NCBI GenBank assembly: GCA_027491915.1
Contig: JAOZGC010000001.1
Span: forward strand, 62,001-126,000
Source of the DNA: Thermoproteota archaeon
Lineage (GTDB): Archaea > Korarchaeota > Korarchaeia > Korarchaeales > Korarchaeaceae
Direction: 5' to 3'
DNA length: 64,000 nucleotides
Part shown: one piece after another, positions 17,225 to 36,884 of the stretch
Layout: the number at the start of each line of letters is the position of its first letter
Position numbering within the stretch: the first letter of the stretch is position 1
Notes under the pieces: model-generated
What the model was told of the DNA's origin: nothing
What the model saw: the letters and a program-made list of their open reading frames with translations, nothing else
The model's database searches: none
Program-made: the position numbers and the translations under genes

Positions 17225-18250
17225 ATGGAGGGAGTAACGGAGTCTCCGGGAGAGGAGCCCATACTCAGGGTTGAGAACCTCAAGAAGTACTTCTACCTCC
17301 GGAGGTCTCTCTCAGAGTTCCTCACCGGAAAGCCCCCGAGGGCCGTCAAGGCCGTGGATGGAATCTCCTTCGAGATCAAGAGGGGGGAGATCTTCGCCCT
17401 CGCCGGCGAGTCCGGCTGCGGGAAGACCACCACAGGCAGGATGGTGGTCAAGCTCGAGACCCCGACGGAGGGCAAGATATACTTCAAGGGAGCGGACGTC
17501 ACGGTCCTCTCGAGGGAGGAAGAAAAGGAATACAGGAAGAAGGTTCAAATAGTCTTCCAGGATCCCTACGGGTCCCTGAACCCCAGGTTCAGGGTTTACG
17601 ACGTCCTGGAGGAACCCCTCCTCCTCGCGGGCGTCGGCGAGTCCAGGGCCGAGAGGGAGGAGATGATAATCAGGGCCCTGGAGGACGTGAGGATGACCCC
17701 CCCCGAGGAGTTCCTGGGGAGGCTGCCCCACCAGCTCAGCGGGGGGCAGAGGCAGAGGGTGGCCCTGGCCAGATCCCTCATACTCAGCCCGGAGCTGATA
17801 GTGGCCGACGAGCCCGTGTCGATGCTGGACCTGTCCATCAGGGCGGAGATACTGAACCTGATGGAGGACGTGAGGAGGAAGAGGGGGGTGACCTACCTCT
17901 ACATAACCCACGACCTCTCCACCGCCAGGTACTTCGCCCACAGGATAGCCATAATGTACCTGGGCAAGCTGGTGGAGGTCACCACGACCGACAGGCTTGT
18001 GGAGAACCCGCTCCACCCCTACACTAAGGCCCTGCTGGCCGCGGTCCCGGAGCCAGATCCCTCCATGAAGGACGTCATAAAGGAGATCCCGATAAAGGGA
18101 GAGGTCCCGAGCGCCGCCAACGTCCCCCCGGGCTGCAGGTTCCACCCCAGGTGTCCCTACGCCTTCGAGCCCTGCGACAAGGAGGAGCCGGAGCTGGTCG
18201 AGGTGGAGCCGGGCCACTGGGTGGCCTGCCACCTGGTGAGCGGGGGTTGA
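17225..18250 (+). CDS. Peptide ABC transporter ATP-binding protein, DppF type
   Basis: This 341-residue partner ATPase has Walker A GESGCGKTTTGRMV, the Q-loop at IVFQDPYGSLNPRF, the signature LSGGQRQRVALARSL, Walker B LIVADEPVSMLDL and the switch His in YITHDLST. It keeps the N-terminal extension LRRSLSEFLTGKPPRAVKAVDG typical of DppF proteins. The C-terminal Cys-rich tail matches that of the DppD-type neighbour. It starts 6 nt after the preceding stop. Its TGA overlaps the TTG start of the last operon gene. Confidence 0.94.
   Translation: MEGVTESPGEEPILRVENLKKYFYLRRSLSEFLTGKPPRAVKAVDGISFEIKRGEIFALAGESGCGKTTTGRMVVKLETPTEGKIYFKGADVTVLSREEEKEYRKKVQIVFQDPYGSLNPRFRVYDVLEEPLLLAGVGESRAEREEMIIRALEDVRMTPPEEFLGRLPHQLSGGQRQRVALARSLILSPELIVADEPVSMLDLSIRAEILNLMEDVRRKRGVTYLYITHDLSTARYFAHRIAIMYLGKLVEVTTTDRLVENPLHPYTKALLAAVPEPDPSMKDVIKEIPIKGEVPSAANVPPGCRFHPRCPYAFEPCDKEEPELVEVEPGHWVACHLVSGG
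18130..18228 (+). repeat. Direct repeat copy 2 (3' end of dppF-like gene)
   Basis: This is the second copy of the segment at 17101-17199. Identity over 44 consecutive nucleotides, including third codon positions, exceeds what protein conservation requires and suggests recent gene conversion between the paired ATPase genes. Confidence 0.8.
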
Positions 18251-18819
18251 TCGGGAGCCTGGACCTCCCCGGCTGGGCCGGCCGGGAAGCCGGCGTCAGG
18301 AGGCGGGTTCTGGCGATCTCCACCCTCGGCCTGCTCATGATGCTCTTCGCCCTGGCGTCATCCCTCTACATGGTGCTGCCGGCTGAGTCTAGGTCGGCTG
18401 GCGACTGGGTCCGGTCCGACCTGGGCCCGACCCACGGGAGGTACGAGTTCGTCCTGGACGAATCCCTGGAAGGTTTCAACGTGCTTGGGTGCTACGGGGA
18501 GATCAACATCACCTCGACCAGTCCAGGTAGGGCCCAGGTTGAGCTGGTCTACGCCGGCGAGAGCAGGACGAGCGAGCTGACCCTCAGGGTCGGGGAGGTA
18601 TCCACGGTGGACCTGCTCGGGGGAATCCCACGCTCGGTCGAGTACGAGCTGTCGGCCCCCGGGGTCATCTCTCTGTCGTCAGACATCAGGGCCTCCTACC
18701 AGAGGCCCGCCGACCCGCTGTGGGTCCTGGCTTCGGCGGCCGCCGCCCTCCTCGGGGCCGCCTTATCCCTGTCCGGATTGACCTCGCTGCTCCTGGGAGA
18801 GGGAGATCGCCTTAGATGA
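18247..18819 (+). CDS. Small bitopic membrane protein ending the ABC operon, hypothetical
   Basis: This 190-residue protein has a transmembrane helix near residues 22-45 (LAISTLGLLMMLFALASSLYM), an extracytoplasmic beta-rich domain of about 105 residues (YEFVLDESLEGFNVLGCYG, TLRVGEVSTVDLLGG), and a second helix near residues 160-182. Both ends are cytoplasmic if the first helix is inward-facing. No family is recognised. The TTG start overlaps the DppF stop as TTGA and has GGTGAG 6 nt upstream, so it is translationally coupled to the transporter and may be an accessory subunit. Its last 57 nt overlap the convergent Nudix gene. Confidence 0.72.
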   Translation: MIGSLDLPGWAGREAGVRRRVLAISTLGLLMMLFALASSLYMVLPAESRSAGDWVRSDLGPTHGRYEFVLDESLEGFNVLGCYGEINITSTSPGRAQVELVYAGESRTSELTLRVGEVSTVDLLGGIPRSVEYELSAPGVISLSSDIRASYQRPADPLWVLASAAAALLGAALSLSGLTSLLLGEGDRLR

Positions 18820-19251
18820 CGCGAGGAGGATCAGAAGGGCGGTCTTCCCGTCCTCTATCCTCCCCTCCATCACCCAGCGGACGGCCTCCCTCAGGCTGAC
18901 CCTCAGAACCTCTATCCTCTCTCCCGGCTCCGGCGAGGGCTCCCCCACGCTCAGGTCGCTGGCCAGGAACATGTGGAGCACCTCGGTGGAGTATCCCGGG
19001 GAGGAGTAGAATTTCCCCGCCGGCTCCAGGGTTCCAGCCGCGATCCCAGTCTCCTCCCTCAGCTCCCTCAGGGCGCAATCCTCCGGGGACTCCCCCTCCT
19101 CCAGGGTCCCGGCGGGCGCCTCTATTAACCAGCGGCCCACCGAGGGCCTCCACTGCCTCTCCAGGTACACGTACTCCCCGTCGACCGGCAGGACCACCAC
19201 CGCCCCGGGGTGGACCACCACCTCCTCCCTGATCCCCCCCTCCCACCTCAC
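18763..19251 (-). CDS. Nudix hydrolase, ADP-ribose pyrophosphatase-like
   Basis: The 162-residue protein shows the Nudix box GTLEEGESPEDCALRELREETGI with the metal-binding REXXEE core. It has the preceding VVHPGAVVVLP and ERQWRPSVGRWLIEAPAG strands typical of ADP-ribose/nucleoside-diphosphate-sugar pyrophosphatases. The only canonical start is the GTG at 19251. However, the same frame stays open upstream and encodes VVYAGRRFEVHV, which matches the first two strands of this family. A perfect GGAGGTGAT lies directly before a CTG at 19293, so translation may really begin there. It is the last gene of an operon behind the phosphohexomutase. Confidence 0.88.
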   Translation of the reverse strand: MRWEGGIREEVVVHPGAVVVLPVDGEYVYLERQWRPSVGRWLIEAPAGTLEEGESPEDCALRELREETGIAAGTLEPAGKFYSSPGYSTEVLHMFLASDLSVGEPSPEPGERIEVLRVSLREAVRWVMEGRIEDGKTALLILLASSKAISLSQEQRGQSGQG

Positions 19252-19312
19252 GTGGACCTCGAACCTCCTGCCGGCGTAGACGACCCTGTCCAGATCACCT
19301 CCGCCTCCGACC

Positions 19313-20680
19313 CTACCCGCACCCAGCTTCCATCACCATCCCGAGGCCCATCTCCCTCAGCCTCTCCAGGTCCTCCACCCTCCTGGCCTCCGCGACCACC
19401 TTAACCTGCGGCAGGGTGTTTGAGGCCCGCACCAGGATCCACCCCTCGGGGAAGTAGGCCTTGACCCCGTCTATGAGCGAGATCCTCTTGGCCTCCCTCC
19501 CCAGCCTCTCCGCAACCTCCGCCACCACCTCAAACTTCCTCTCGTCCGGGCAGTCTACCACCATTACCCCGGAGTTGAAGAACTTGGGCAGGGAGTCGAC
19601 GAGCGAGGACAGGGGTCCCCTCCTGGCCGCCAGCTCGGCCATCCTCAGCGAGGCGAATATGGCGTCGTCGAAGCCGTACATCTCCGGAAAGTAGAGGTGA
19701 CCGCTCTTCTCCCCGCCCAGCACGGCCCCCCTCCTCCTCATCTCCTTCTTTATGTGAACGTGTCCTGTTTTGGTCTCCACGGGAACCCCCCCCGCCCTCC
19801 TGACGGCCTCCTCCACCACCGCCGAGCAGGAGACGTCGTAGACCACAGCCCCCCCTCCGGACCGACGGAGGTACTCCGCGGCCATTATGGCCAGGGATAG
19901 GTCTCCGTCCAGTATCCTGCCCCGGTCGTCCACGAATATGGCCCTGTCCCCGTCCCCGTCGAAGCCGACGCCCAGGTCCGCCCCCGACTCGATCACCATC
20001 TCCGCCAACCCAGCGAGCGTCTCCGGCCCGGGCTCCGGAGGGTGGCCGGGGAAGCGCCCGTCCACCTGCCAGTTGATCACCCCCACGTCGAACCCGGCCG
20101 AGCTCAGCAGCCTGGGAGCCACGTCCGCCGCCACCCCGTTGGACGCGTCGATGGCCACCAGGATCCCGCCGCCCGCCCCGCCCGGACCAGACGCGCCGAT
20201 CCTCCTGAGGGCCTCCTCCAGGTAATCGTCCACAACGTCGATCTCTTCCAGGCTCCCCCCGCCACCCCCGCGGGGATGGGACCCGAACGCCAGCTCGGCG
20301 ATGCGCTCGAGCCCGCTGCCCATGCCTATCATCTCCCCGCCCGGTCCAACCAGCTTGAACCCGTTCCACTCGGGCGGGTTGTGGCTGGCCGTCACCATGA
20401 CGCCCCCGTCCAGGTTCAGCGAGGCGACCGCGTAGTACAGGAGGGGCGTGGGGATCCTCCCCAAGTCCGCCACGTGCGCCCCCGATTCCACCAGTCCCTC
20501 TATCAGACCATCCCTAAGGGCCGGTGAGCTCGTCCTCCCGTCCATTCCCACCGCCACCCTGGCGCCGGGCCCGACGAACATCCCGAAGGCCGCCCCGAGA
20601 ACCCTGGCGCCGTCTTCGTCCAGGTCTCGGCCGTACACCCCCCTCACGTCGTACGAGCGGAAGGCCCCCCTAGACAGCAC
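19313..20680 (-). CDS. Phosphomannomutase/phosphoglucomutase
   Basis: This 455-residue alpha-D-phosphohexomutase interconverts hexose 1- and 6-phosphates for sugar-nucleotide synthesis. The four family signatures are in order: the phosphoserine loop VTASHNPPEWNGFK with Ser near residue 99, the Mg loop GVGFDGDGDRAIFVD, the sugar-specificity loop GGEKSGHLYF, and the C-terminal phosphate-binding segment RASNTLPQVKVV. The variant GEKSGH is common to archaeal enzymes acting on both glucose and mannose phosphates. It starts 10 nt after the cis-prenyltransferase stop. Together they fit synthesis of dolichol-linked sugars for N-glycosylation. Confidence 0.94.
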   Translation of the reverse strand: MLSRGAFRSYDVRGVYGRDLDEDGARVLGAAFGMFVGPGARVAVGMDGRTSSPALRDGLIEGLVESGAHVADLGRIPTPLLYYAVASLNLDGGVMVTASHNPPEWNGFKLVGPGGEMIGMGSGLERIAELAFGSHPRGGGGGSLEEIDVVDDYLEEALRRIGASGPGGAGGGILVAIDASNGVAADVAPRLLSSAGFDVGVINWQVDGRFPGHPPEPGPETLAGLAEMVIESGADLGVGFDGDGDRAIFVDDRGRILDGDLSLAIMAAEYLRRSGGGAVVYDVSCSAVVEEAVRRAGGVPVETKTGHVHIKKEMRRRGAVLGGEKSGHLYFPEMYGFDDAIFASLRMAELAARRGPLSSLVDSLPKFFNSGVMVVDCPDERKFEVVAEVAERLGREAKRISLIDGVKAYFPEGWILVRASNTLPQVKVVAEARRVEDLERLREMGLGMVMEAGCG

Positions 20681-26586: not shown

Positions 26587-27321
26587 ATGCCGACCAAGAG
26601 GCTGTACTACCTAGATCAGTACATCAAGAGCTTCGAGTCCAGGGTCGAGGCCGTCTCGGAGGAGGGGGATCTTATGGGGGTCGTCCTTGAGGAGACGGCC
26701 TTCTACCCCAGGGGGGGAGGTCAGCCCTCCGACACGGGGACCCTGGCAGGGGGATCCTGGAAACTCAGAGTCGAGTCCGTGGAGGAGAGGGGGGGCGGAG
26801 AGATCGTCCATCTGGGACGGGCGGACGGCCGCCCCTCCGAGGGGGACCCGGTCCGGGGGACCCTGGATTGGGACAGGAGGTACAGGCTCATGAGGATGCA
26901 CACGGCGGCCCACATACTGATGGCCTCCGTCTCCAGGGTGTTCGGCAGGGTCGTGGACGTGGTGGGCAGCGGGCTCTCGGTGGAGAGGGGCAGGATGGAT
27001 TTCGCCGAGAGGATCAGGGCCAATCACGTGCCCGACATAGAGGCCGCGGCCAACAAGATAATCGCATCGGACGTCGAGGTCAGGGCCGCCTTCTTCCCCA
27101 GGGAGGGGGCTCGGGAGATCCTGGCCAAGTACGGGAGGAACCTGGGAGCGCCCCAGGCCGGGATGGAGACCGTCAGGATAGTGGAGATATCCGGAGTGGA
27201 CGCCGACCCCTGCGGGGGCACCCACGTCTCCAGGACCTCCGAGGTCGGGTCCCTCAGGATACTGAAGAGGGACAACAAGGGGAGGGGAGTCACGAGGCTG
27301 GTGTTCTCGGTTGAGCCCTGA
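26587..27321 (+). CDS. alaX: Alanyl-tRNA editing protein AlaX
   Basis: This 244-residue stand-alone editing factor hydrolyses Ser-tRNA(Ala) in trans. The zinc ligands are visible in MHTAAHILMA (HxxxH) and DADPCGGTHV (CxxxH). The N-terminal half (TAFYPRGGGQPSDTG) is the glycine-rich motif found in AlaX-M proteins and in the C-terminal half of AlaRS editing regions, so this is the medium-length form. The start was chosen by a TATA box 27 nt upstream; a longer frame covers the preceding gene. The smc start codon lies 11 nt inside its end, so this tRNA quality-control gene heads the SMC operon. Confidence 0.94.
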   Translation: MPTKRLYYLDQYIKSFESRVEAVSEEGDLMGVVLEETAFYPRGGGQPSDTGTLAGGSWKLRVESVEERGGGEIVHLGRADGRPSEGDPVRGTLDWDRRYRLMRMHTAAHILMASVSRVFGRVVDVVGSGLSVERGRMDFAERIRANHVPDIEAAANKIIASDVEVRAAFFPREGAREILAKYGRNLGAPQAGMETVRIVEISGVDADPCGGTHVSRTSEVGSLRILKRDNKGRGVTRLVFSVEP

Positions 27322-29674
27322 GAGGCTCCCCACCATCAGGGAGGTCAGGATAAGGAACTTCAAGTCCTTCAGATCCCTGAACCTCCCCCTCCTACCCGGG
27401 ATCACCGGCATAACCGGGCCCAACGGCAGCGGGAAGTCGAACCTGCTCGAGTCCATAGCCTTCGTCCTGGGCCACAGGGGGAGGGGCCTCAGGGCCGCCC
27501 GCCTCGGCAATCTGGTCAGCAGGGGGGCGAGACGGGCCGAGGTCACCCTGAAGATAGCGACTCGTTCCGGCGAGAGGACCGTGAGCAGGGGGATCAGGGG
27601 GTCAACCGGCTTCTACAGGATCGGGGGGAGGATCGTCCCCAGGTACAGGGCCGAGCTCCTCCTGAGGGAGCTCGGGTACAGGGCGGACTGGTACACCTAC
27701 GTGGCCCAGGGGACCGTCACCAGGCTGGTCGAGATGAGCCCCAGGGAGAGGGTCGGGATAGTGGAGGAGATAAGCGGCGTCAGGGAGTTCGAGAGGAGGA
27801 GGGCCGAGATACTGACCAGGCTCGGGGAGGTGGAGGGGAGGCTGGAGGTGATCAGGGCCAGGCTCTCTGAGAGGGAGAGGTTCCTCAGCTCCCTGGCCCG
27901 GAGGATAGAACTGATGAGGCGCAGGGAGGAGCTGGAGAGGAGGGCCCTCTCCCTGAGGAAGGCCGTCCTGCTGGAGGAGCTGAACCGCGTCAGGGGGAGG
28001 ATATCCGAGCTGCGCCTGGGATTGGAGGGTGGGGGGGAGGCGGGGGGAGATTCTAATCCCGACGTGGAAATGGAGGCCGTTGAGGCGGCCATAAGGGAGG
28101 CCGAGCGCAGGCTGAGGGAGCTGGAATCGGACGAACACATGAGGATCGCGAGGGAGGCCGAGTCCGTCAGACTGAGGATTAGGTCCAAGAGGAGAGAGCT
28201 ATCAGCCGTGGAGAGGGAGATCGAGGCGATCAGGGCCACCCTATCCTCGGTGGGGGAGCTTGGTGTTCCCAGGGAGATATCCGGGGTCGAGGGAGTGTTG
28301 GGAACCGTGTCTCAGCTGATAAAACCGCTGCCCGGTTACGAGCGAGCCTACAGGGCGGCCGCGGGTGGGAGGGCGGGGGACGTGGTGGTCGAGAGCCTGG
28401 ACCTGGCGCTGAGCCTCCGGGGGGCGCTCAGGAGGTCCGGGCGGAGGGTGAGGCTGATCCCGCTCGACGTGGTCAGGCCGGGCCGACCGCCCTCCCCGCC
28501 TGGGTACTCCCTCGGCCTCATGATAGAGCACCTATCTTACGATCCAGACCTGGACGGTGTCGCCAGGGCGGTCTTCGGGGGGACCGTGGTGGTGAGGGAC
28601 CTGAGGGACGTTTCCAGGGGGGACATAGGGAGGGCCAGGTTCGTCAGCCTGGACGGGGACCTCATGGAGAGGGACGGGAGCGTCATAGTCACCCCCGACA
28701 GGTCTGGGGTCAGGGGAAGGCTGGAGAGGCTGGACGAGTTGGAGGCCGAGAGGGAGAGGCTGCGATCGGAGTTGGCGGATCTGGAGAGGAGGGTCTCTTC
28801 CCTTCCAGACGAGTCCTCCGTCCGCAGGATGGCGGAGGAGCTGAGGGGGGTCCGATCCTCCCTGTCGAGGCTGAGGGAGCGCAAGGAGAGGATCCTCCGC
28901 CTGAGACTCGAGGAGGCCAGGAGGAGGGCCGCCGTCTCAGAAGAGCTGGGGAGGCTGGAGGCGAGGGAGGAGCAGATCCTTCGTGAGCTCGACTCCCTTG
29001 GGGACGTGGAACCGGCCGACCCCGGGTGGGGCGACCCTTCATCTGCCCTGGCGGCCGTCAGGGCCGAGCTGAGGTCGCTGCCCGCCCCCGATCCCGGGCT
29101 CGAGGAAGAGTACGGTCGGGAGCTCGAGAAGGTCAAGCTCGCGAGGGCCGAGGCGGAGGAGATAGAGAGGGAGAGAATGGAGGTGCTGGAGGCGCTCAGG
29201 AGGGCAACGGGGGAGAGGGACGGGGCTCTGGCGGACGCCGTGGGTAGGCTGGCGGAGGCCTTCTCCAAGATCTACGGGGAGGTGTCCGGCGGATCCGCCA
29301 GGATGTGGCTGAGCGGGAGCTGGCCCGACGCTGCCCTGGAGATAGAGGTGATCCCCCCAGGGAAGCCCCCGACGAGGCTCGAGTCGCTGTCCGGCGGGGA
29401 GAAATCGGTGGCCGCCCTGGCCCTCGTGGCGGCCGTGGCCGCGGTCAGGCCATCCCCCATATACCTGTTCGACGAGGCCGACGCCATGCTCGACGCGGAG
29501 AACTGCCGGAGGTTCGCCAAGATACTGCGGATCCTGGCCTACTCTGGATCCCAGGTCCTCGTGGTGTCCTTGAAGAGGGAGACCCTGTCGGAGGCCGACA
29601 GGATTCTCGGCGTGACCGACTCGGGCGGGAGATCGAGGGTGGTCGGGGTTGACCTCTCCAGGTACCCGGGATGA
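27311..29674 (+). CDS. smc: Short-armed SMC (condensin) ATPase
   Basis: This 787-residue protein has all SMC parts in order. The N-terminal ATPase half has Walker A GPNGSGKSNLLES near residue 36 and the SMC-typical WYTYVAQGTVTRLVEMSPRE region. The first coiled-coil arm is about residues 155-325, a hinge domain about 327-463, and the second arm about 463-640. The C-terminal ATPase half has signature LSGGEKSVAALAL near 693 and Walker B YLFDEADAMLD near 717. Usual SMCs have about 1150-1200 residues, so each arm is only about half normal length. The TTG start overlaps alaX. scpA and scpB follow with overlaps, making the complete condensin set. Confidence 0.94.
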   Translation: MSPERLPTIREVRIRNFKSFRSLNLPLLPGITGITGPNGSGKSNLLESIAFVLGHRGRGLRAARLGNLVSRGARRAEVTLKIATRSGERTVSRGIRGSTGFYRIGGRIVPRYRAELLLRELGYRADWYTYVAQGTVTRLVEMSPRERVGIVEEISGVREFERRRAEILTRLGEVEGRLEVIRARLSERERFLSSLARRIELMRRREELERRALSLRKAVLLEELNRVRGRISELRLGLEGGGEAGGDSNPDVEMEAVEAAIREAERRLRELESDEHMRIAREAESVRLRIRSKRRELSAVEREIEAIRATLSSVGELGVPREISGVEGVLGTVSQLIKPLPGYERAYRAAAGGRAGDVVVESLDLALSLRGALRRSGRRVRLIPLDVVRPGRPPSPPGYSLGLMIEHLSYDPDLDGVARAVFGGTVVVRDLRDVSRGDIGRARFVSLDGDLMERDGSVIVTPDRSGVRGRLERLDELEAERERLRSELADLERRVSSLPDESSVRRMAEELRGVRSSLSRLRERKERILRLRLEEARRRAAVSEELGRLEAREEQILRELDSLGDVEPADPGWGDPSSALAAVRAELRSLPAPDPGLEEEYGRELEKVKLARAEAEEIERERMEVLEALRRATGERDGALADAVGRLAEAFSKIYGEVSGGSARMWLSGSWPDAALEIEVIPPGKPPTRLESLSGGEKSVAALALVAAVAAVRPSPIYLFDEADAMLDAENCRRFAKILRILAYSGSQVLVVSLKRETLSEADRILGVTDSGGRSRVVGVDLSRYPG

Positions 29675-30251
29675 GTCGAAGTCCCGCGTCGAGGAGGCCC
29701 TCAGGGAGTTCTCCGTCAGGGGGGACCTCGAGGTCCTCGCGCTCCGCCTGCTGCTGATAAGCGAGGATCTGGCCTCCAGGGCGGCTAGGCTCCTCAGGTC
29801 GATCCTCCCTGGGGAGGGAACCAGACCCCGGGGTTCCGGGGGGAGGGCCGGCGGGACCGCCCGGAACGTGCCCCCCCTCACCCCCAGGATGGGGCGGATC
29901 GTGATGATACCCCCCTCGGCCCGGGAGTTCGAAGTCGAGAGAGATTGGGCATCCAGCCTGGTGGGCCGGGCCCGGGAGGCTGTCAGGGTCGTGGCGGCCC
30001 TGGCCGCCGATCTCCTCAGGGAGATCGAGCGGCTCAGGGAGAGGATATCGACCCTCCTCAGGGAGGGCAGGGGGACCTTCACCCTGAGGGAGCTGGCGAG
30101 GGACAGGGAGGAGGCGTCGGCCTACCTTATATCCCTCCTCCTGCTGGAGAGGGAGGGGGAGGTCCTACTCTCTCAGGACAGGATCTACGGGGACCTGGTG
30201 GTGAGGGTGAGTCCCGTTGGCGGGGGAGGTGGACGCGGCCCTCCTGGTTGA
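29649..30251 (+). CDS. scpA: Segregation and condensation protein A (kleisin)
   Basis: This 200-residue kleisin bridges the SMC heads. The N-terminal helix DLEVLALRLLLISEDLASRAARLLRS binds the SMC neck. The C-terminal winged helix TFTLRELARDREEASAYLISLLLLEREGEVLL, then QDRIYGDLVVRV, matches the ScpA end where Q...fGdI is conserved. The middle is Gly/Arg/Pro-rich and shorter than in bacteria (about 250 residues), which fits the short SMC arms. The only reasonable start is the TTG at 29649, overlapping smc by 26 nt. The tail after VRV is Gly-rich and overlaps scpB by 35 nt, and may be fortuitous read-through of the overlap. Confidence 0.85.
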   Translation: MTSPGTRDESKSRVEEALREFSVRGDLEVLALRLLLISEDLASRAARLLRSILPGEGTRPRGSGGRAGGTARNVPPLTPRMGRIVMIPPSAREFEVERDWASSLVGRAREAVRVVAALAADLLREIERLRERISTLLREGRGTFTLRELARDREEASAYLISLLLLEREGEVLLSQDRIYGDLVVRVSPVGGGGGRGPPG

Positions 30252-30705
30252 GGCGGCCCTCTTCGCGGCCGGGAGGCCCATGTCCGTCGAGGAGATATCT
30301 GAGGCGACCGGCCTGGAGGTCGAGGAGGTCGAGTCGGTCATTCCGAGGATCTCCGAGTCCCTGAAGGGGAGGCCCTACTTCCTCCAGGAGAGGCCCGACG
30401 GCCTGTTCATGACCCTGAGGCCGGAGTACAGGGAGGTGGCGGAACGCGTCTCGGCCAGGCCGGAGCTCTCCAGGGCCGAGCTCAGAACCCTCGCCGTGAT
30501 ATCGGCCCTCGGCCCGCTCAGCCTATCTAGGTTGGCCGAGCTGAGGGGTTCCTCGGCCTACGCGCACGTCAAGAAGTTGAGGAAGAAGGGGTTGATCTAC
30601 GTCAAGAGGGCCGGGCGGGGAAGGGTGGTCGGCGTCACGAGGGACTTTCGGAGGTTCTTCGAGCCCCCGGGACCCGAGCTTATTAAGGGAGCCGGGGGGG
30701 AGTGA
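30217..30705 (+). CDS. scpB: Segregation and condensation protein B
   Basis: This 162-residue protein consists of two winged-helix domains: VEAALFAAGRPMSVEEISEATGLEVEEVESVI at the N-terminus and ELRTLAVISALGPLSLSRLAELRGSSAYAHVKKLRKKGLI from about residue 90. These are the hallmark pair of ScpB, which dimerises and stabilises the SMC-ScpA ring. The TTG at 30217 lies inside scpA, so translation is coupled. The C-terminal segment TRDFRRFFEPPGPELI is typical of archaeal ScpB. It ends 3 nt before the GTG of the next, unidentified coiled-coil gene. Confidence 0.92.
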   Translation: MAGEVDAALLVEAALFAAGRPMSVEEISEATGLEVEEVESVIPRISESLKGRPYFLQERPDGLFMTLRPEYREVAERVSARPELSRAELRTLAVISALGPLSLSRLAELRGSSAYAHVKKLRKKGLIYVKRAGRGRVVGVTRDFRRFFEPPGPELIKGAGGE

Positions 30706-30708
30706 AGG

Positions 30709-32613
30709 GTGCCCCCGATGGCGGTGGGGGAGAGGGTCTCGAGGGAGCTGCGGGAGAGGGCCCTCGCCGAGGACGTCGACCAGGTCCTGAAGGCCCTAGA
30801 GAGGGAGGGGCTGCTGGACGCGTTCGAGGGCTATCTCCTGGCCCGGGACATATCCCTCTCCCTGTGCGGGGGCCTCGTGAGCATAGGGTCTCCGACCGCC
30901 AAGGAGATCAGGGCCAAGTTGGAGTCCCTGGGGGGGGAGGCGGCCTCACTCCTCTCCACCCTGGCCAGATCCAGCGGGAAGGGCGGATTCCCCTTCTCCG
31001 GCGGGATCCCGTCGGAGCTGGTCTCCGAGGCGGATCGGGCCCTTGACTCCCTGATCTCAGAGCTGGAGGGGGCGACCTACCTGCTCATCTCCGAGGCGCT
31101 CCGACTGGTGGGACCGACCAGGGAGTCGGTGCTGCGCACGGCCAGGTCACTCCTTGATTCCCTCGTGGGGGGTACCAAGCTTGGAGAACGGTGGGAGAGG
31201 ATACCCGATCTGATATCGGCTCTGGAACAGCTTTCCCCCCCCTCGGAGGGCTCGCCGCCCGGAGACGTCAGAGACTACGTCTCGCTGGTGGCAGAGGTCA
31301 AGGCCGCGGTATCGGAGGTGGAGGAGAGGCTCTCAAGATCGAAGGAGGCGACGGAGAGGCTAGGCCTCGCGCTGACCGAGCTCGAGTCTACCATAGAGGA
31401 GATCAGAAGGGAGATCTCCGCCGCCGAGGAGGAGGGGATCAGGGCCGAGTTCATGGCCGAGACGATCGAGTGGGCTCTGGTCAGGGCCAAGAGACTCAGG
31501 AGGAGGTGCCAACCCGGGGACGTGGAGTGCGCCGAGAAGGCGGCCGAGGACGCCGTCAGGCTGGGGAACAGGATAAGGGAGATGGCGGAGTCGGGGATAA
31601 GGCAGCTCAGGGAACTTACTGATCTAATGAGGGAGGTGACAGGACTCATTCCGGAGGCGGAGGCCGCGGCCGAGGCCCTGGGGAGGGAGCTCTCCTCCGA
31701 CTCGCTCAGGCTGATAGTCAGGGACGCCGCGGCCGAGCTCTCCGGATACATGGGTGGAATGGTCATTAAGGATCAGGATGAGATGGAGAACTTCCGAACC
31801 AGGCTCCTCGAGATGAGGGACGTCCTGAGATCACTGATCTCCCTAAGGAGAGCCTCGGAGGAGGCCGGCGGCCTGGAAGAGATGGCCTCCAGAATAGCAG
31901 ATGGGCTGTCCTCCTTGGCCATAATAAGGGCGGTGCTCGCCAAGTCGGAAGAAGATCCGAGCATACTGACGAGAGAAGCCCTCCCAGCACTCAAAGAATT
32001 TGGGGAGAAGATATCGGAGTATAGAGAGGCCCAGAGGGACGCTGAGAGGTTGTATCCCTACTGGAAGAGGTACCTGCTGGATCTGGCAAGGGAGCGCGGC
32101 GGGCGGGTGAGCGCGGGAGAGCTGACCAGGATCCCCCAGAGGTGGAGGCCGTGGTTCCTCAGGAGGGTGGAGGAAGAGGGTATTGCCTCGGTCTCTGAGG
32201 GTATTGTGGCCGTGACGATGCCGCAAGAGGGTCCGCCCAGAGCCAGCGTGGGGGCTGGCCCGACGTTCGAGAGGGAGGCCCCGGCCGCCGCGAAGCCCGC
32301 TGGACGGGCTCCAGAGATCATCGGATCGGCCGGGGCGGAGGCCCCTCCCCCGGAGGCCCCTCCCCCGGAGGCCCCTTCCCCCCGCACTACTTCCCTCTCC
32401 CCCTCCCCAACTCCGCCCAGGCCGAGGTCCGCCCCCGCAGGGATTCGAGGCAGGATGGGTGGTAGGGCGGGGATGAGATCGTCGATCTCACCGGCCCACG
32501 CGCTCATTCGACTGGCCCTTGAGCTGCTCTCTTCCGAGACCGGGGCCAACGTCCCGCCCGCCCAACCAGACGCGGAGGACTTGAAGCGTAGGATAGCGGC
32601 CCACCTCATCTGA
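30709..32613 (+). CDS. Coiled-coil protein with winged-helix and Pro-rich tail, downstream of scpB
   Basis: No known family was recognised in this 634-residue protein. Residues 1-470 are almost wholly helical and charged, with clear coiled-coil stretches around 185-270 (VSEVEERLSRSKEATERLGL) and 350-445. At about 450-505 a winged-helix-like module follows (YLLDLARERGGRVSAGEL, IPQRWRPWFLRRVEEEGI). A Pro/Ala-rich disordered linker with PPPEA repeats runs about 525-580. The final short domain is SPAHALIRLALELLSSETG. The GTG is 3 nt after the scpB stop (an ATG at 30718 has GGGTG upstream and is an alternative), so it belongs to the SMC-ScpAB operon. A chromosome-linked or cytoskeletal adaptor role is inferred from position only. 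Confidence 0.8.
   Translation: MPPMAVGERVSRELRERALAEDVDQVLKALEREGLLDAFEGYLLARDISLSLCGGLVSIGSPTAKEIRAKLESLGGEAASLLSTLARSSGKGGFPFSGGIPSELVSEADRALDSLISELEGATYLLISEALRLVGPTRESVLRTARSLLDSLVGGTKLGERWERIPDLISALEQLSPPSEGSPPGDVRDYVSLVAEVKAAVSEVEERLSRSKEATERLGLALTELESTIEEIRREISAAEEEGIRAEFMAETIEWALVRAKRLRRRCQPGDVECAEKAAEDAVRLGNRIREMAESGIRQLRELTDLMREVTGLIPEAEAAAEALGRELSSDSLRLIVRDAAAELSGYMGGMVIKDQDEMENFRTRLLEMRDVLRSLISLRRASEEAGGLEEMASRIADGLSSLAIIRAVLAKSEEDPSILTREALPALKEFGEKISEYREAQRDAERLYPYWKRYLLDLARERGGRVSAGELTRIPQRWRPWFLRRVEEEGIASVSEGIVAVTMPQEGPPRASVGAGPTFEREAPAAAKPAGRAPEIIGSAGAEAPPPEAPPPEAPSPRTTSLSPSPTPPRPRSAPAGIRGRMGGRAGMRSSISPAHALIRLALELLSSETGANVPPAQPDAEDLKRRIAAHLI
32341..32370 (+). repeat. 15-bp tandem repeat encoding PPPEA units
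   Basis: Two perfect copies of GCCCCTCCCCCGGAG are followed by a degenerate third. They code for part of the disordered Pro-rich linker of the coiled-coil protein, a likely spot of length variation between strains. Confidence 0.75.
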
Positions 32614-32712: not shown

Positions 32713-34107
32713 GTGATAGTGGTAAATGCCGTGCTGTCCGAGAGCGAGCTGTCCCAAGAACTCAGATATCTCCTCCTGAAGCTCAGAGAGAGACATCCCG
32801 ACTCCGTCTCCGTCTACTTCTACGACGTATCCAGCATAAAGAAAAAGAAGGAGGTGAAGAACCTCCCGGAGATCAAGATAGACGGGCTCTCGCTCTCGGG
32901 AGAGGAGGCCCTGGCAGCGGCCGAGACGCTGCTGGACCTGCTCGAGTCGGGCGTCTCCCCCACGCCTCCTCTCATACTCCGGAAGATCAGGGAGCGGAGG
33001 CTGGCAATAATAAGCGAGGCGAAGGAGGCCCTGAGGAGGCTGGAAGAGGTAACCTCCGTCATACCCCCCGAGAGGAGGACCGTGATGGAGAGGTACAGGG
33101 AGGAGCTCCAGGCCATATCCACGGGAATGTTCGGATACAGCAAGAGGTCTATAGAGAGGGCCAGAGAGGAGCTGGATCGGATAAACTACCTCATAAGGAA
33201 GCTGGCCTCGGAGGGGGTAGAGGACAGGCTATCCAGCAGGATAGCCCTGATACACAGGGGGGTGTTCGAGGCCCTGAGCGAGGCAGAGGAGATCTCCCGC
33301 CTGCTGGGCGCGGAGGTGAGGTCGGAGATCCTGGAGTCGCTGCGAGGGGCCCTGGCCGAACTCAGGGAGGGCCCGAAGAACGTGGGCGATATAGCCGAGG
33401 CCGCCCTGGGCAAGCTCGGGGAGGTGGTCGAATTGGAGCGGCGGCGGATACAGTGGCTGGAGAGGGTGCAGGGCCGACTGACGAAGGTCAGGAGCAGGGT
33501 GGGCGGTTGGTTGGCCTCGGCCAGCTCCCTGGACGCCGGGATCGGAATCAACTGGTTCACCAAGATGAGCGTCGCCGTCCTGACCAGGCTGTTCGTTAGG
33601 CTGGCCTTCCCGTCGGGAGACTGGCTAGCCTCCCTCAGGGAGATAGACGACATGATAAATCAGCTCGACCTGATCCCCCTGATCTCCGAGACCGTCGACT
33701 CCGCAGCCCAGTCCGGGATAGACGCCGGAATGAGGGCGGTGGAGACCCTCAGGCTCGCCGTCAGGAGGATGGACCCCGAGAAGGCGACCCTCGATGACAT
33801 GAATTCTATGATAGAGGAGATCAGGGCGGCCGCCGCCGGGGCCGCCGGGGGCCGCGGGGCGCCCGTCTCCCTGGAGATCAAGATCGACGAGATCTCGGAG
33901 AAGGTGTCCCGGCTGATAGACACGGCCTCCCGGCTGGTCAAACTGGGGGTCGAGGCCGACCGGGAGCTGGCGGAACTGCTCGAGGTGGAGGGCTCCCTGA
34001 AGGTCCTCAGGAGGAGGCTCTCCGCGGGGGAGGACGTGTCTGAGGAGCTGGACGAAGTGGAGCGCCGGGTGGAGTCGATAGGTCGATCCGTGAAGGCAAA
34101 GGTGTGA
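32713..34107 (+). CDS. Coiled-coil protein with possible thioredoxin-like N-terminal domain, upstream of tubulin-like gene
   Basis: This 464-residue protein belongs to no family recognised here. Residues 1-78 alternate strands and helices (MIVVNAVLSE, SVSVYFYDVS, LPEIKIDGLSLSGEEAL) in a pattern like a thioredoxin/glutaredoxin fold but without any CxxC. The rest is helical and charged, with coiled coils at about 90-165, 190-260 and 390-464. A moderately hydrophobic stretch at about 275-335 (INWFTKMSVAVLTRLFVRLAF) might lie on the membrane surface. The GTG start is 33 nt from a TATA-like box. Gene order places it between another coiled-coil gene and a CetZ-like GTPase, so it is a candidate partner or membrane adaptor of that filament. 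Confidence 0.8.
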   Translation: MIVVNAVLSESELSQELRYLLLKLRERHPDSVSVYFYDVSSIKKKKEVKNLPEIKIDGLSLSGEEALAAAETLLDLLESGVSPTPPLILRKIRERRLAIISEAKEALRRLEEVTSVIPPERRTVMERYREELQAISTGMFGYSKRSIERAREELDRINYLIRKLASEGVEDRLSSRIALIHRGVFEALSEAEEISRLLGAEVRSEILESLRGALAELREGPKNVGDIAEAALGKLGEVVELERRRIQWLERVQGRLTKVRSRVGGWLASASSLDAGIGINWFTKMSVAVLTRLFVRLAFPSGDWLASLREIDDMINQLDLIPLISETVDSAAQSGIDAGMRAVETLRLAVRRMDPEKATLDDMNSMIEEIRAAAAGAAGGRGAPVSLEIKIDEISEKVSRLIDTASRLVKLGVEADRELAELLEVEGSLKVLRRRLSAGEDVSEELDEVERRVESIGRSVKAKV

Positions 34108-34164: not shown

Positions 34165-35358
34165 ATGAGATGGTTCGGGGTCGGTCTGGGGGGCGCGGGC
34201 GGCGCCATAATGGACGCCACATATGAAGTCTTCTCCTCGAGGTCCCCGGAGGGCCTCATAGGGGCCGTCGTCTTCAACACGGCCGAGTCGGACAGGGCCA
34301 AGCTCAGGCACCTCAAGGAGTCCTTCTACCTGTTCGGAGAGTTCGGGGGGGCCGGAGTCGGCGCCCGGTGGAAGGACTCCATGAGGGCCATGGGATCCCC
34401 GGAAGCCAAAGAGATGGTCAGGTCGGTGCTCGAGCGGAGGGGGATCTCAGGGGCCACGGGGGTGCTCCTGTCGACCGCCCTCGGGGGAGGGACGGGAAGC
34501 GGATCGACCCCCCTGGTGGCCAGGTACGTCAGGGAGATCCTGGGCGGAGAATCCTCCGTCCAGCCTATAGTCTCGGTGGGGGTCCTCCCCTTCAGGTACC
34601 CCCGGGAGTCCATGAGGTTCGCCTACAACAGCGCCGTGTCTCTCTCCAACCTCCTCTCCCCGACCGACTCGGTCTTCCTGTTGGACAACGACGTGGTCTG
34701 GAATAGGGTGGTTTCAGATGAACCGAACCTCAGCGACGAGGAGGCGCTTCAGAGGATAAACAGGCTGGCCGGACTGTTCCTGAGGGCCATATCCGTCGCC
34801 TCCTCCAACCCAATGATGGGCGGCTTCAAGACCACCCTCGACTCCCAGGACCTCAGGTCGATGGTGAGGTTCTTCGAGGCCTCCATATGCGTCCCGTGCT
34901 ACGCCTCCGTCAGGGTGGAGGCGGTTGAGGGGTCCCTGGAGTTCCTGATGGAGCTGGCCCTGGGGGAGGGCTGCTTCGCCGAGGTGGAGCCCAAGACCGC
35001 CCTGAAGGCGGCCTTCGTCATAAGGGGGCCGGAGAGGTACCTGAACGTCAACTCCCTCTTCGAGGCCAAGAGGGTCCTGGCCGAGAGGATAGCGGGCATA
35101 GACGTCAGGGAGGGGCTGGCCGCGGCGCCGGAGGATGAGAAGAGATTCGAGATCTCCGTGCTGCTCGTGGAGCCCAGGGTCCCGAGGATAGATGAGATAC
35201 TCGAGCAGGCGGAGCTCTACTACAACGTCCACGAGGACGAGTTGACCAAGATGGAGGACACCCCAAGGGACGAGTTCGAGGGATACCTGGAGAGGCTGAG
35301 GTCCCACCTGGAGAAGGCCGAGGAGTCCAGGAGGGGATTGGAGGCTGGGTCGGGCTGA
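34165..35358 (+). CDS. Divergent tubulin/FtsZ-superfamily GTPase, CetZ-like
   Basis: This 397-residue protein has the whole GTP-binding core of tubulin/FtsZ: T1 VGLGGAGGAI near residue 6, T2 VFNTAESD near 38, T3 FGGAGVGARWKDSM, the tubulin signature LGGGTGSGST near 110, T5/T6 GVLPFRYPRESMRFAYNSA and LLDNDV, and a T7 candidate TLDSQDL near 226 retaining the two acidic residues used for GTP hydrolysis. NTA in T2, GVLP and DND resemble CetZ more than cell-division FtsZ. There is no canonical FtsZ C-terminal peptide; the end is a charged helix. It should polymerise in a GTP-dependent way. It lies 57 nt behind a coiled-coil gene and close to smc-scpAB. Confidence 0.9.
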   Translation: MRWFGVGLGGAGGAIMDATYEVFSSRSPEGLIGAVVFNTAESDRAKLRHLKESFYLFGEFGGAGVGARWKDSMRAMGSPEAKEMVRSVLERRGISGATGVLLSTALGGGTGSGSTPLVARYVREILGGESSVQPIVSVGVLPFRYPRESMRFAYNSAVSLSNLLSPTDSVFLLDNDVVWNRVVSDEPNLSDEEALQRINRLAGLFLRAISVASSNPMMGGFKTTLDSQDLRSMVRFFEASICVPCYASVRVEAVEGSLEFLMELALGEGCFAEVEPKTALKAAFVIRGPERYLNVNSLFEAKRVLAERIAGIDVREGLAAAPEDEKRFEISVLLVEPRVPRIDEILEQAELYYNVHEDELTKMEDTPRDEFEGYLERLRSHLEKAEESRRGLEAGSG

Positions 35359-35417: not shown

Positions 35418-36884
35418 GTGTCCGACCTGGAGAGGTTCTTCTCCCCGAGATCGATAGCCGTGATAGGGGCTTCCAGGGATCCCGGGTCGGTTGGTCACGA
35501 GCTCCTGAGGATACTGGCGGAGAACAGGCTGAGGGGGGGATTTGATTGGAGGCTCTACGCAGTGAACCCCAGGGCCGACTCCGACATACTGGGGGTGCCC
35601 ACCTACAGATCCGTCAACGAAGTCCCCGGGGACGTCGACCTTGGCGTGATAGTGACCCCGGCCAGGTACGTGCCGTCTATAGTTGAAGAGTGCGGGCTCA
35701 GGGGAATAAAGAACCTCATAGTGATAAGCGGGGGCTTCGCCGAGGTGGGAGAGGAGGGTAAGAGGCTTCAGGACGCCCTGATCCGGGCGGCCAGGCGGAG
35801 GGGAATGAGGATCCTAGGTCCGAACTGCGTCGGGGTGGTGGTCCCCAGGACCGGGGTGGACACGGCCTTCCTCCCGGTCGAGAAGCCCTTCGGAGACGGG
35901 AGCCTGGAATCCCTCCCCCGACCGCCCCCCGGGAACATATCCCTCATATCCCAGTCGGGCGCCTTCGGCGTGGCATGCCTGGACTACATGGCGGGTGAGG
36001 GTCTGGGGCTGGCCAAGTTCGTCAGCTACGGAAACAAGGCGGACGTGGACGAGGTGGACCTGATAGGGTACCTGGCCGACGATCCCGAGACCCGGGTGAT
36101 AATAGTCTACGCCGAATCCATAGAGAGGGGGAGGGAGTTCTTGGAGGCCGTCCGGAGGGCGGTGGCCAAGAAACCGGTGGTCGTGCTCAAGGCGGGGAGG
36201 ACGTCGGCCGGGGCGAGGGCCGCAAGCTCCCACACGGCCGCCCTCGCCGGATCCGACGAGGTGTACGAGGCGGCCCTGAGGCAGGCCGGCGCCATCAGGG
36301 TATACGAGGTCGAGGAACTGTTCGACGCGACCAAGGCCCTCTCCATGCAGCCGCCGGCCCGGGGGAGGAGGGTGGCAGTCCTCACAGACGGCGGGGGGGC
36401 CGGCGTGATGGCCACGGACGAGTTGGAGTCCAGAGGGGCATCCGTTCCGAGACTATCCGGGCGGACCCTGGCCGAGCTCGAGAGGATGAGGGAGGAGGGG
36501 GAGATCCCGCCCATATCCGGCATATCCAACCCGGTCGACCTGACCGGCAGCGCCACGGACGAGCACTTCGTCAGATCACTCGAGGTCCTACTGGGGGATC
36601 CCGGGATAGACGGCGTGGTGGTGCTCGCCCTCCACCACGTCCCTGGGGTCACGGACGAACTTCCCTCCAAGCTCGCCCGGGTCGCGGCCGACGGGGGGAA
36701 GCCCGTGGTCGCCTGCGACATAGGACAGGGGAGTTATTCGGTCGCCTTCAGGGACCTGTTCGACCGCGCCGGGATACCCGCCTACCCGACCCCTGAGAGG
36801 GCCGCCAGGGCCATGGTGCACCTGATACGCTACGGGGAGGCCCTGGCCAGGGTCTCCCCCCTCAGGTCCTCACCGACGCCCTAG
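35418..36884 (+). CDS. ADP-forming acyl-CoA synthetase, alpha subunit
   Basis: This 488-residue protein resembles the alpha subunit of ADP-forming acetyl/acyl-CoA synthetases, which make ATP from acyl-CoA in the archaeal cytoplasm. The CoA-binding Rossmann domain opens with FFSPRSIAVIGASRDPGSVG. FGPNCVG-type and LISQSGAFGVACLDYMA motifs follow. ASSHTAALAGSDEVYEAALRQAG contains the His that carries the phosphate. LTDGGGAGVMATDEL begins the third domain. No ATP-grasp beta subunit is encoded nearby, so it must pair with a partner elsewhere. It starts with a GTG about 30 nt after a TATA-like T-rich stretch and overlaps the convergent RidA gene by 23 nt. Confidence 0.9.
   Translation: MSDLERFFSPRSIAVIGASRDPGSVGHELLRILAENRLRGGFDWRLYAVNPRADSDILGVPTYRSVNEVPGDVDLGVIVTPARYVPSIVEECGLRGIKNLIVISGGFAEVGEEGKRLQDALIRAARRRGMRILGPNCVGVVVPRTGVDTAFLPVEKPFGDGSLESLPRPPPGNISLISQSGAFGVACLDYMAGEGLGLAKFVSYGNKADVDEVDLIGYLADDPETRVIIVYAESIERGREFLEAVRRAVAKKPVVVLKAGRTSAGARAASSHTAALAGSDEVYEAALRQAGAIRVYEVEELFDATKALSMQPPARGRRVAVLTDGGGAGVMATDELESRGASVPRLSGRTLAELERMREEGEIPPISGISNPVDLTGSATDEHFVRSLEVLLGDPGIDGVVVLALHHVPGVTDELPSKLARVAADGGKPVVACDIGQGSYSVAFRDLFDRAGIPAYPTPERAARAMVHLIRYGEALARVSPLRSSPTP

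Follow-up and report, generated by a model that had tools for sequence, protein, structure and literature searches.

CetZ proteins are found mainly in Euryarchaeota, and CetZ-like groups have also been noted in other archaea and in bacteria, where coiled-coil neighbours of such CetZ-like genes were observed as well (PMC9871819). Outside Halobacteria, CetZ was confidently found only in four euryarchaeal orders, including Thermococcales (PMC9856176). In parallel, non-canonical FtsZ-like proteins without a known role were described in Korarchaeia (PMC9723716). In the papers searched, neither CetZ-type proteins in Korarchaeia nor their link with condensin genes were reported. The present analysis concerns a tubulin-superfamily gene that lies near condensin genes in a genome from one Korarchaeia family. 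It was found in a stretch of 64,000 nucleotides (the window: contig 2, positions 62001-126000) from an assembly of 1.12 Mb that is 91% complete. The genus of the window is designated g1, and g2, g3, g4 and g5 are other genera of the same family.

The best sequence, profile and fold matches of the window protein are CetZs, namely Haloferax CetZ1 (4b46) and CetZ2 (4b45), the Methanosaeta protein (3zid) and those of Thermococcales. It has in common with them the NTA..D, GVLP and LxDN motifs and the D-x-x-D/E of the T7 loop and, like Thermococcales CetZ and CetZ2, it is devoid of the long M-loop insertion. Nevertheless, it shares only 24-29% identity with CetZ, keeps 12 of 48 diagnostic residues, has in T1 the G of FtsZ at the place of the CetZ Q, possesses an extra C-terminal helix, is without a CetZ-type tail, has a condensin neighbourhood and belongs to Korarchaeia, not to Euryarchaeota. 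Tubulins (OdinTubulin 7evl, BtubB, alpha/beta-tubulin) are nearly tied in fold score (Z 41) and their C-terminal helices align in range, but identity falls to 14-18%, profile scores reach about 30-40 bits against 79 for CetZ, and there is no Tubulin_C match. Archaeal FtsZ1 and FtsZ2 share the GTPase core and T-loops with the window protein, which differs from them in tree, profiles and diagnostic residues and is without their C-terminal peptide. A cluster of tandem FtsZ-like genes in g4 comes from the same archaeal family and is also located near a homologue of cc634, the coiled-coil neighbour discussed below, but its products group with FtsZ (100/100). Finally, plasmid partition by TubZ/TubR combines a tubulin-like filament with a winged-helix DNA-binding adaptor, and the window model matches TubZ (4ei7), so that by fold search alone a TubZ affiliation would be possible. 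The likeness of the two systems is an analogy only; the window set is chromosomal and its putative adaptor is a long coiled coil.

The GTPase, its motifs and its distribution

The gene occupies positions 34165-35358 on the forward strand, with an ATG at 34165 and a stop at 35358, and encodes 397 aa. The open reading frame is real: most full-length orthologues have the start M[RK]W[FY]G in common, and the Pfam Tubulin profile PF00091 matches with 61.8 bits over a cut-off of 33 (E 1.3e-16), far beyond chance. The superfamily motifs listed in a preliminary description of this locus were found directly in the translation: T1 reads GLGGAGG, the T4 phosphate-binding loop GGGTGSG covers residues 107-113 (34483-34503, forward strand) with glycines that are invariant or nearly so in an alignment of 33 sequences, and the T7 acids lie in D226-S-Q-D229 (34840-34851, forward strand). 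NTAESD (residues 38-43), GVLP (139-142) and LLDND (172-176) are also present. Within these motifs, A40, D43 and G139 are of the CetZ type, the FtsZ residues at these positions being D, H and V; further CetZ-type residues are S112, N199 and P289, in place of T, D and G of FtsZ. The FtsZ C-terminal peptide had been described as missing and, when C-termini were compared by eye in the alignment, a charged helix was indeed found in its place. In this alignment, both the C-terminal peptide for SepF/FtsA binding and a CetZ-type C-terminal tail are absent from the open reading frame.

The window protein would bind GTP and form head-to-tail protofilaments, in which the T7 acids of one subunit would complete the GTPase site of the next. 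D226 and D229 are kept in g1, g2 and g5, the first acid being hidden by a run of unknown bases in one g5 copy. In the two g3 species, both known from MAGs, T7 reads ELSAQSL with both acids replaced by S (L051:1760-2947 and L052:1-894), and NTAESD has become DTSSRT in the one whose N-terminus is complete; judging from these residues, GTP hydrolysis is unlikely in the g3 orthologues. The hydrolysis and filaments proposed earlier stay predictions for the window protein and, owing to the loss of both acids in g3, hydrolysis does not hold across the family of orthologues.

Three tubulin-superfamily genes were recovered by a family search of the genome. Contig 3 carries two of them, with 158 and 156 bits, and the third is the window gene, with 64 bits. 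Both contig-3 copies exceed the 295.2-bit cut-off of the FtsZ equivalog TIGR00065 (358 and 388 bits), the window protein stays under it (36.4 bits), and the two contig-3 proteins fall into two separate FtsZ clades in the tree. The window protein is therefore not the only division FtsZ of its genome and, given two canonical FtsZs, not the division FtsZ.

Orthologues were present in all sampled genomes of g1, g2, g3 and g5. These four genera belong to a single Korarchaeia family, to which the orthologues were confined among the 29 genomes of the phylum searched. Over most of the length, identity to the window protein is 61-62% in g2, 53-54% in g5 and 36-37% in g3. The g5 genus is Methanodesulfokora, which we take to be a korarchaeon. 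No orthologue was found in any sampled genome of g4, presumably Korarchaeum in view of the family it belongs to and of its cluster of FtsZ-like genes. Among 398 genomes taken to be Thermoproteota, only two had matches clearly better than FtsZ (80 and 70 bits), and a second search widened these TACK matches to seven genomes from two families. The proteins concerned (L225, L226, L255:6068-8002, L302:6567-8499) are about 455 aa long and end in a winged-helix-like stretch (MCM_WH 13.9 bits, below cut-off). Carriage of the tubulin on plasmids was also considered and set aside, as the search returned only two weak haloarchaeal matches (E 1e-4 and 8e-4). A very divergent tubulin-superfamily pair was seen in g4 and g5 (L204 in genome G018, L205 in genome G008), and it joins neither FtsZ nor the window clade confidently.

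Placement within the tubulin superfamily

Profiles built for each group scored 87-114 bits against the window clade for CetZ, 61-91 for Thermococcales, 37-50 for FtsZ and 34-52 for the tandem FtsZ-likes. In the same way, the hhalign score was 257 with CetZ and 127 with FtsZ. Searched against the PDB, the profile gave 79 bits with CetZ, 40 with AtubA and 33 with OdinTubulin, so that by this comparison the sequence is not closest to tubulins or artubulins.

The main tree, built from 61 proteins under LG+C20+PMSF, separated two sides with 100/100 support: one held FtsZ and the tandem FtsZ-likes, the other CetZ, Thermococcales CetZ, the window clade and the TACK winged-helix tubulins. The window clade was sister to the main CetZs (96/96) on a stem of 1.39, and a wider quick tree of 83 sequences agreed (SH-aLRT 89-94). 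Grouping of the window clade with FtsZ was rejected by AU tests (p 1.7e-7), as was grouping with the Korarchaeal tandem FtsZ-likes (p 5.7e-7), by which kinship with the five tandem genes of g4 was ruled out, and with FtsZ and tandem FtsZ-likes together (p 0.0046). Profile comparison and superfamily tree thus both lead to the CetZ side, in line with the deep separate branch outside FtsZ1/FtsZ2 that had been anticipated. The boundary is set by Thermococcales CetZ, inside which the window clade lies in the tree; a position outside Thermococcales plus CetZ had an AU p of 0.039, and an exclusive grouping with Thermococcales CetZ a p of 0.036. Because of the long stem, there is little support for where the clade stands with respect to Thermococcales CetZ (AU p 0.04). 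A grouping of the window clade with the TACK winged-helix tubulins was not rejected (p 0.18), and the TACK winged-helix group with CetZ but without the window clade had a p of 0.0046. From these tests, the CetZ side is firm and the exact position of the window clade is not.

Of the 48 alignment columns by which CetZ can be told from FtsZ, 12 hold a CetZ-type residue in the window protein, 6 an FtsZ-type residue and 30 neither, and Thermococcales proteins are CetZ-type at 23-24; by this alignment test, the majority of CetZ-specific residues is not kept. The CetZ_C profile PF21011 (cut-off 21.6) reached 18.7 bits with the window protein, which is under the cut-off, and exceeded it in three of seven orthologues (22.4, 24.8 and 31.0).

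The model obtained with AlphaFold, from an alignment that held CetZ and FtsZ relatives, has a pLDDT of 93.7. Its top PDB matches in Foldseek are the CetZs 4b46, 4b45 and 3zid (6e-24 to 1e-20, with CetZ at ranks 1-4), followed by FtsZ at 7e-19; VIA gave Z 42.4 for CetZ2, 41.7 for CetZ1 and 41.0 for OdinTubulin, adjacent rows within 1 being tied. The predicted structure is hence a CetZ fold, to which the DSSP assignment of the model adds a C-terminal helix at residues 368-395 (35266-35349, forward strand) that is conserved in orthologues and lies beyond the part matched by CetZ1/2. Structural alignments extend to residue 388-397 with tubulins (up to 369 aligned residues) and to 354-358 with CetZ1/2, which implies that at least some of this helix has a tubulin counterpart; by aligned range in the model, it is apparently similar to tubulin H12.

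Taken on its sequence, the window protein is a CetZ-side or CetZ-like GTPase that is strongly diverged and not a textbook CetZ. The CetZ identity first proposed thus stands as to the side of the superfamily but not as plain CetZ, considering the diagnostic residues and the extra helix that aligns with tubulins, and "CetZ-like" is preferred here to "CetZ" because of the residue test. The view that a CetZ in a thermophile is unexpected had to be abandoned, since the thermophilic Thermococcales and Archaeoglobales possess CetZ (PMC9856176); what is new is the Korarchaeia and TACK setting. CetZ-side clades in Korarchaeia and Thermoproteota would push the CetZ/FtsZ split towards the archaeal base, or imply an old transfer.

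The condensin row and the coiled-coil neighbour

The condensin genes that were said to adjoin the tubulin gene were found upstream in the same row, all on the forward strand. The SMC ATPase (27311-29674) is a short form of 787 aa, and owing to this length its 398 bits to TIGR02169 stay under the cut-off of 729. SMC measures 758-791 aa in the examined genomes of the family (the window copy; L046:4700-6976; L305-L309, L312). The usual length is about 1170 aa, so the coiled-coil arms must be much shortened. A ScpA-like kleisin follows at 29649-30251 with a weak Rad21/Rec8 match (18.4 bits, under cut-off), conserved and in the usual position, and then ScpB at 30217-30705 (PF04079, 92.9 bits); the three genes overlap as called. 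Only 3 bases past the end of ScpB starts cc634 (30709-32613, forward strand), a coiled-coil protein with a winged-helix domain and a putative partner or adaptor. Between cc634 and the tubulin gene lies cc464 (32713-34107, forward strand), an orphan frame of 464 aa, probably a coiled coil, that is present only in the window genome and has no homologue among 28 relatives; the tubulin gene follows it after 57 bases. Its origin as a duplicate of cc634 was discarded, as no relation was detectable on comparison. Downstream, an acyl-CoA synthetase-like gene (35418-36884, forward strand) is a conserved neighbour in g1, g2 and g3.

The row reads SMC-ScpA-ScpB-cc634-tubulin-acyl-CoA synthetase-like in g2 and cc634-tubulin-acyl-CoA synthetase-like in g3, where the contig ends inside cc634. 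A cc634 homologue precedes the tubulin gene directly in g2 and g3 (adjoining or overlapping) and in one of the three g5 species, and in g1 with only cc464 intervening, the other two being without cc634 upstream. By a ScpB search of 41 genomes, ScpB adjoins a window-type tubulin only in G000, G001 and G005, and in those genomes of g4 and g5 that were examined, SMC-ScpA-ScpB has no such tubulin beside it. The condensin link recurs in a second genus and is more than one chance neighbourhood. The pairing of cc634 with tubulin is probably older than the condensin link, which would have been gained before the g1/g2 split or lost elsewhere.

No Pfam match was obtained for cc634. Its winged-helix domain (residues 440-507; 32026-32229, forward strand; LYPxWR...IPxxWR...EEG) was delineated from conservation, a model and a fold search; LYPxWR...IPxxWRxW...EEG is shared by the homologues, and two candidates without the LYPxWR/IPxxWR signature (L258:8362-10080 and L265:9668-11347) were dropped. 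A 99-residue model forms a winged helix with a pLDDT of about 90. Foldseek gave generic matches and no significant E-value (best 0.04). Many winged helices were matched by VIA at Z 7-8.4, including those of Z-DNA binders, MarR/CRP regulators and the SMC-binding winged helices of ScpA (4i99, Z 7.8) and the cohesin kleisin (6qpq, Z 7.9). Coming from a model, these matches support a winged-helix fold of cc634, not a function.

In g4, which lacks the tubulin, the loci examined (L041:8591-14157 and 17462-19650; L263, L264, L262, L261) hold a cc634-like gene and, after it, a gene for a Ras/Arf-like GTPase that adjoins it or overlaps it slightly. The same two kinds of gene are neighbours at one g3 locus, and in some g4 genomes the cc634-like gene is only a few kb away from the five tandem FtsZ-likes. 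This indicates that cc634 is not exclusive to tubulin, and from these gene pairs its family may be a general partner of GTPases.

Possible roles of the gene set and its recurrence

From gene order and domain make-up, we consider that a CetZ-side filament GTPase with cc634 as winged-helix partner may be tied to condensin-based chromosome organisation, a reading to which we give about an even chance (roughly 0.5). Through its winged helix, cc634 would anchor the filament on DNA or on an SMC complex. In the window species, the set would be expressed together with condensin and would help to organise or move the chromosome, separately from division by FtsZ1/FtsZ2. Against this speak the location of the tubulin gene away from condensin in g5, where two of three species do not have cc634 beside it either, the Ras-like partner of cc634 homologues in g4, the generic nature of the winged-helix matches and the loss of the T7 acids in g3.

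A somewhat doubtful alternative is that the protein acts on cell shape or the envelope as CetZ does in Haloferax, its place after condensin being incidental and due to operon growth in the g1/g2 ancestor. Fold and tree side are those of CetZ, published cetZ neighbourhoods are varied (PMC9856176), and SMC-ScpAB occurs without an adjoining tubulin in the examined genomes of g4 and g5, so that the tie to condensin may have been acquired late. The missing CetZ-type tail, a conserved neighbour that is cc634 and not an envelope or pilus gene, and a second ScpB-tubulin pair in another TACK family argue against this alternative. It seems unlikely that the protein is a membrane GTPase scaffold or switch, with cc634-like proteins serving GTPases of more than one kind in a membrane or trafficking module, namely Ras/Arf-like ones in g4 and g3 and tubulin-like ones in g1, g2, g3 and g5. 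The Ras/Arf-like pairings and the nearby tandem FtsZ-likes of g4 would fit, but cc634 shows no obvious membrane segment (highest 19-residue hydropathy 1.27), winged helices are more usual in DNA or SMC binding, and no Ras-like gene was found beside the tubulin loci of g1, g2 and g5. Lastly, a divergent FtsZ1 or FtsZ2 paralogue still active in division, suggested by FtsZ-type residues at 6 of the 48 columns, is largely refuted and extremely improbable in view of the AU result, the TIGR00065 score and the two canonical FtsZs.

The condensin-linked reading can be carried further, to a tubulin-type device for chromosome segregation in TACK archaea, encoded on the chromosome itself, in which condensin, a filament derived from CetZ and a coiled-coil adaptor with a winged helix would jointly organise or move the chromosome. 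This is a long shot and, if true, it would be a prokaryotic counterpart of tubulin coupled to SMC-bound DNA.

As a raw count, tubulin-superfamily genes were observed beside SMC-complex genes in three separate cases. Such a recurrent gene tie is a concrete, testable candidate for a way in which a filament might be coupled to chromosome handling in some archaea. Apart from the window family, two species of the TACK family f94 have an ScpB gene (PF04079, 105.7 bits) immediately before the gene for a CetZ-side tubulin. The other TACK family with winged-helix tubulins, f90, shows no condensin link at the locus examined, where a phosphoribosyltransferase gene lies upstream. Finally, in three species of genus g228 (family f53), a divergent FtsZ-side gene is located beside a gene for an SMC-like ATPase of about 640 aa (L297:1314-5887, L298:3288-8221, L300:2982-7502). 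The product of the gene after the ATPase gene weakly matches the Nse4 kleisin (22.4 bits against a cut-off of 26, in the one species tested).
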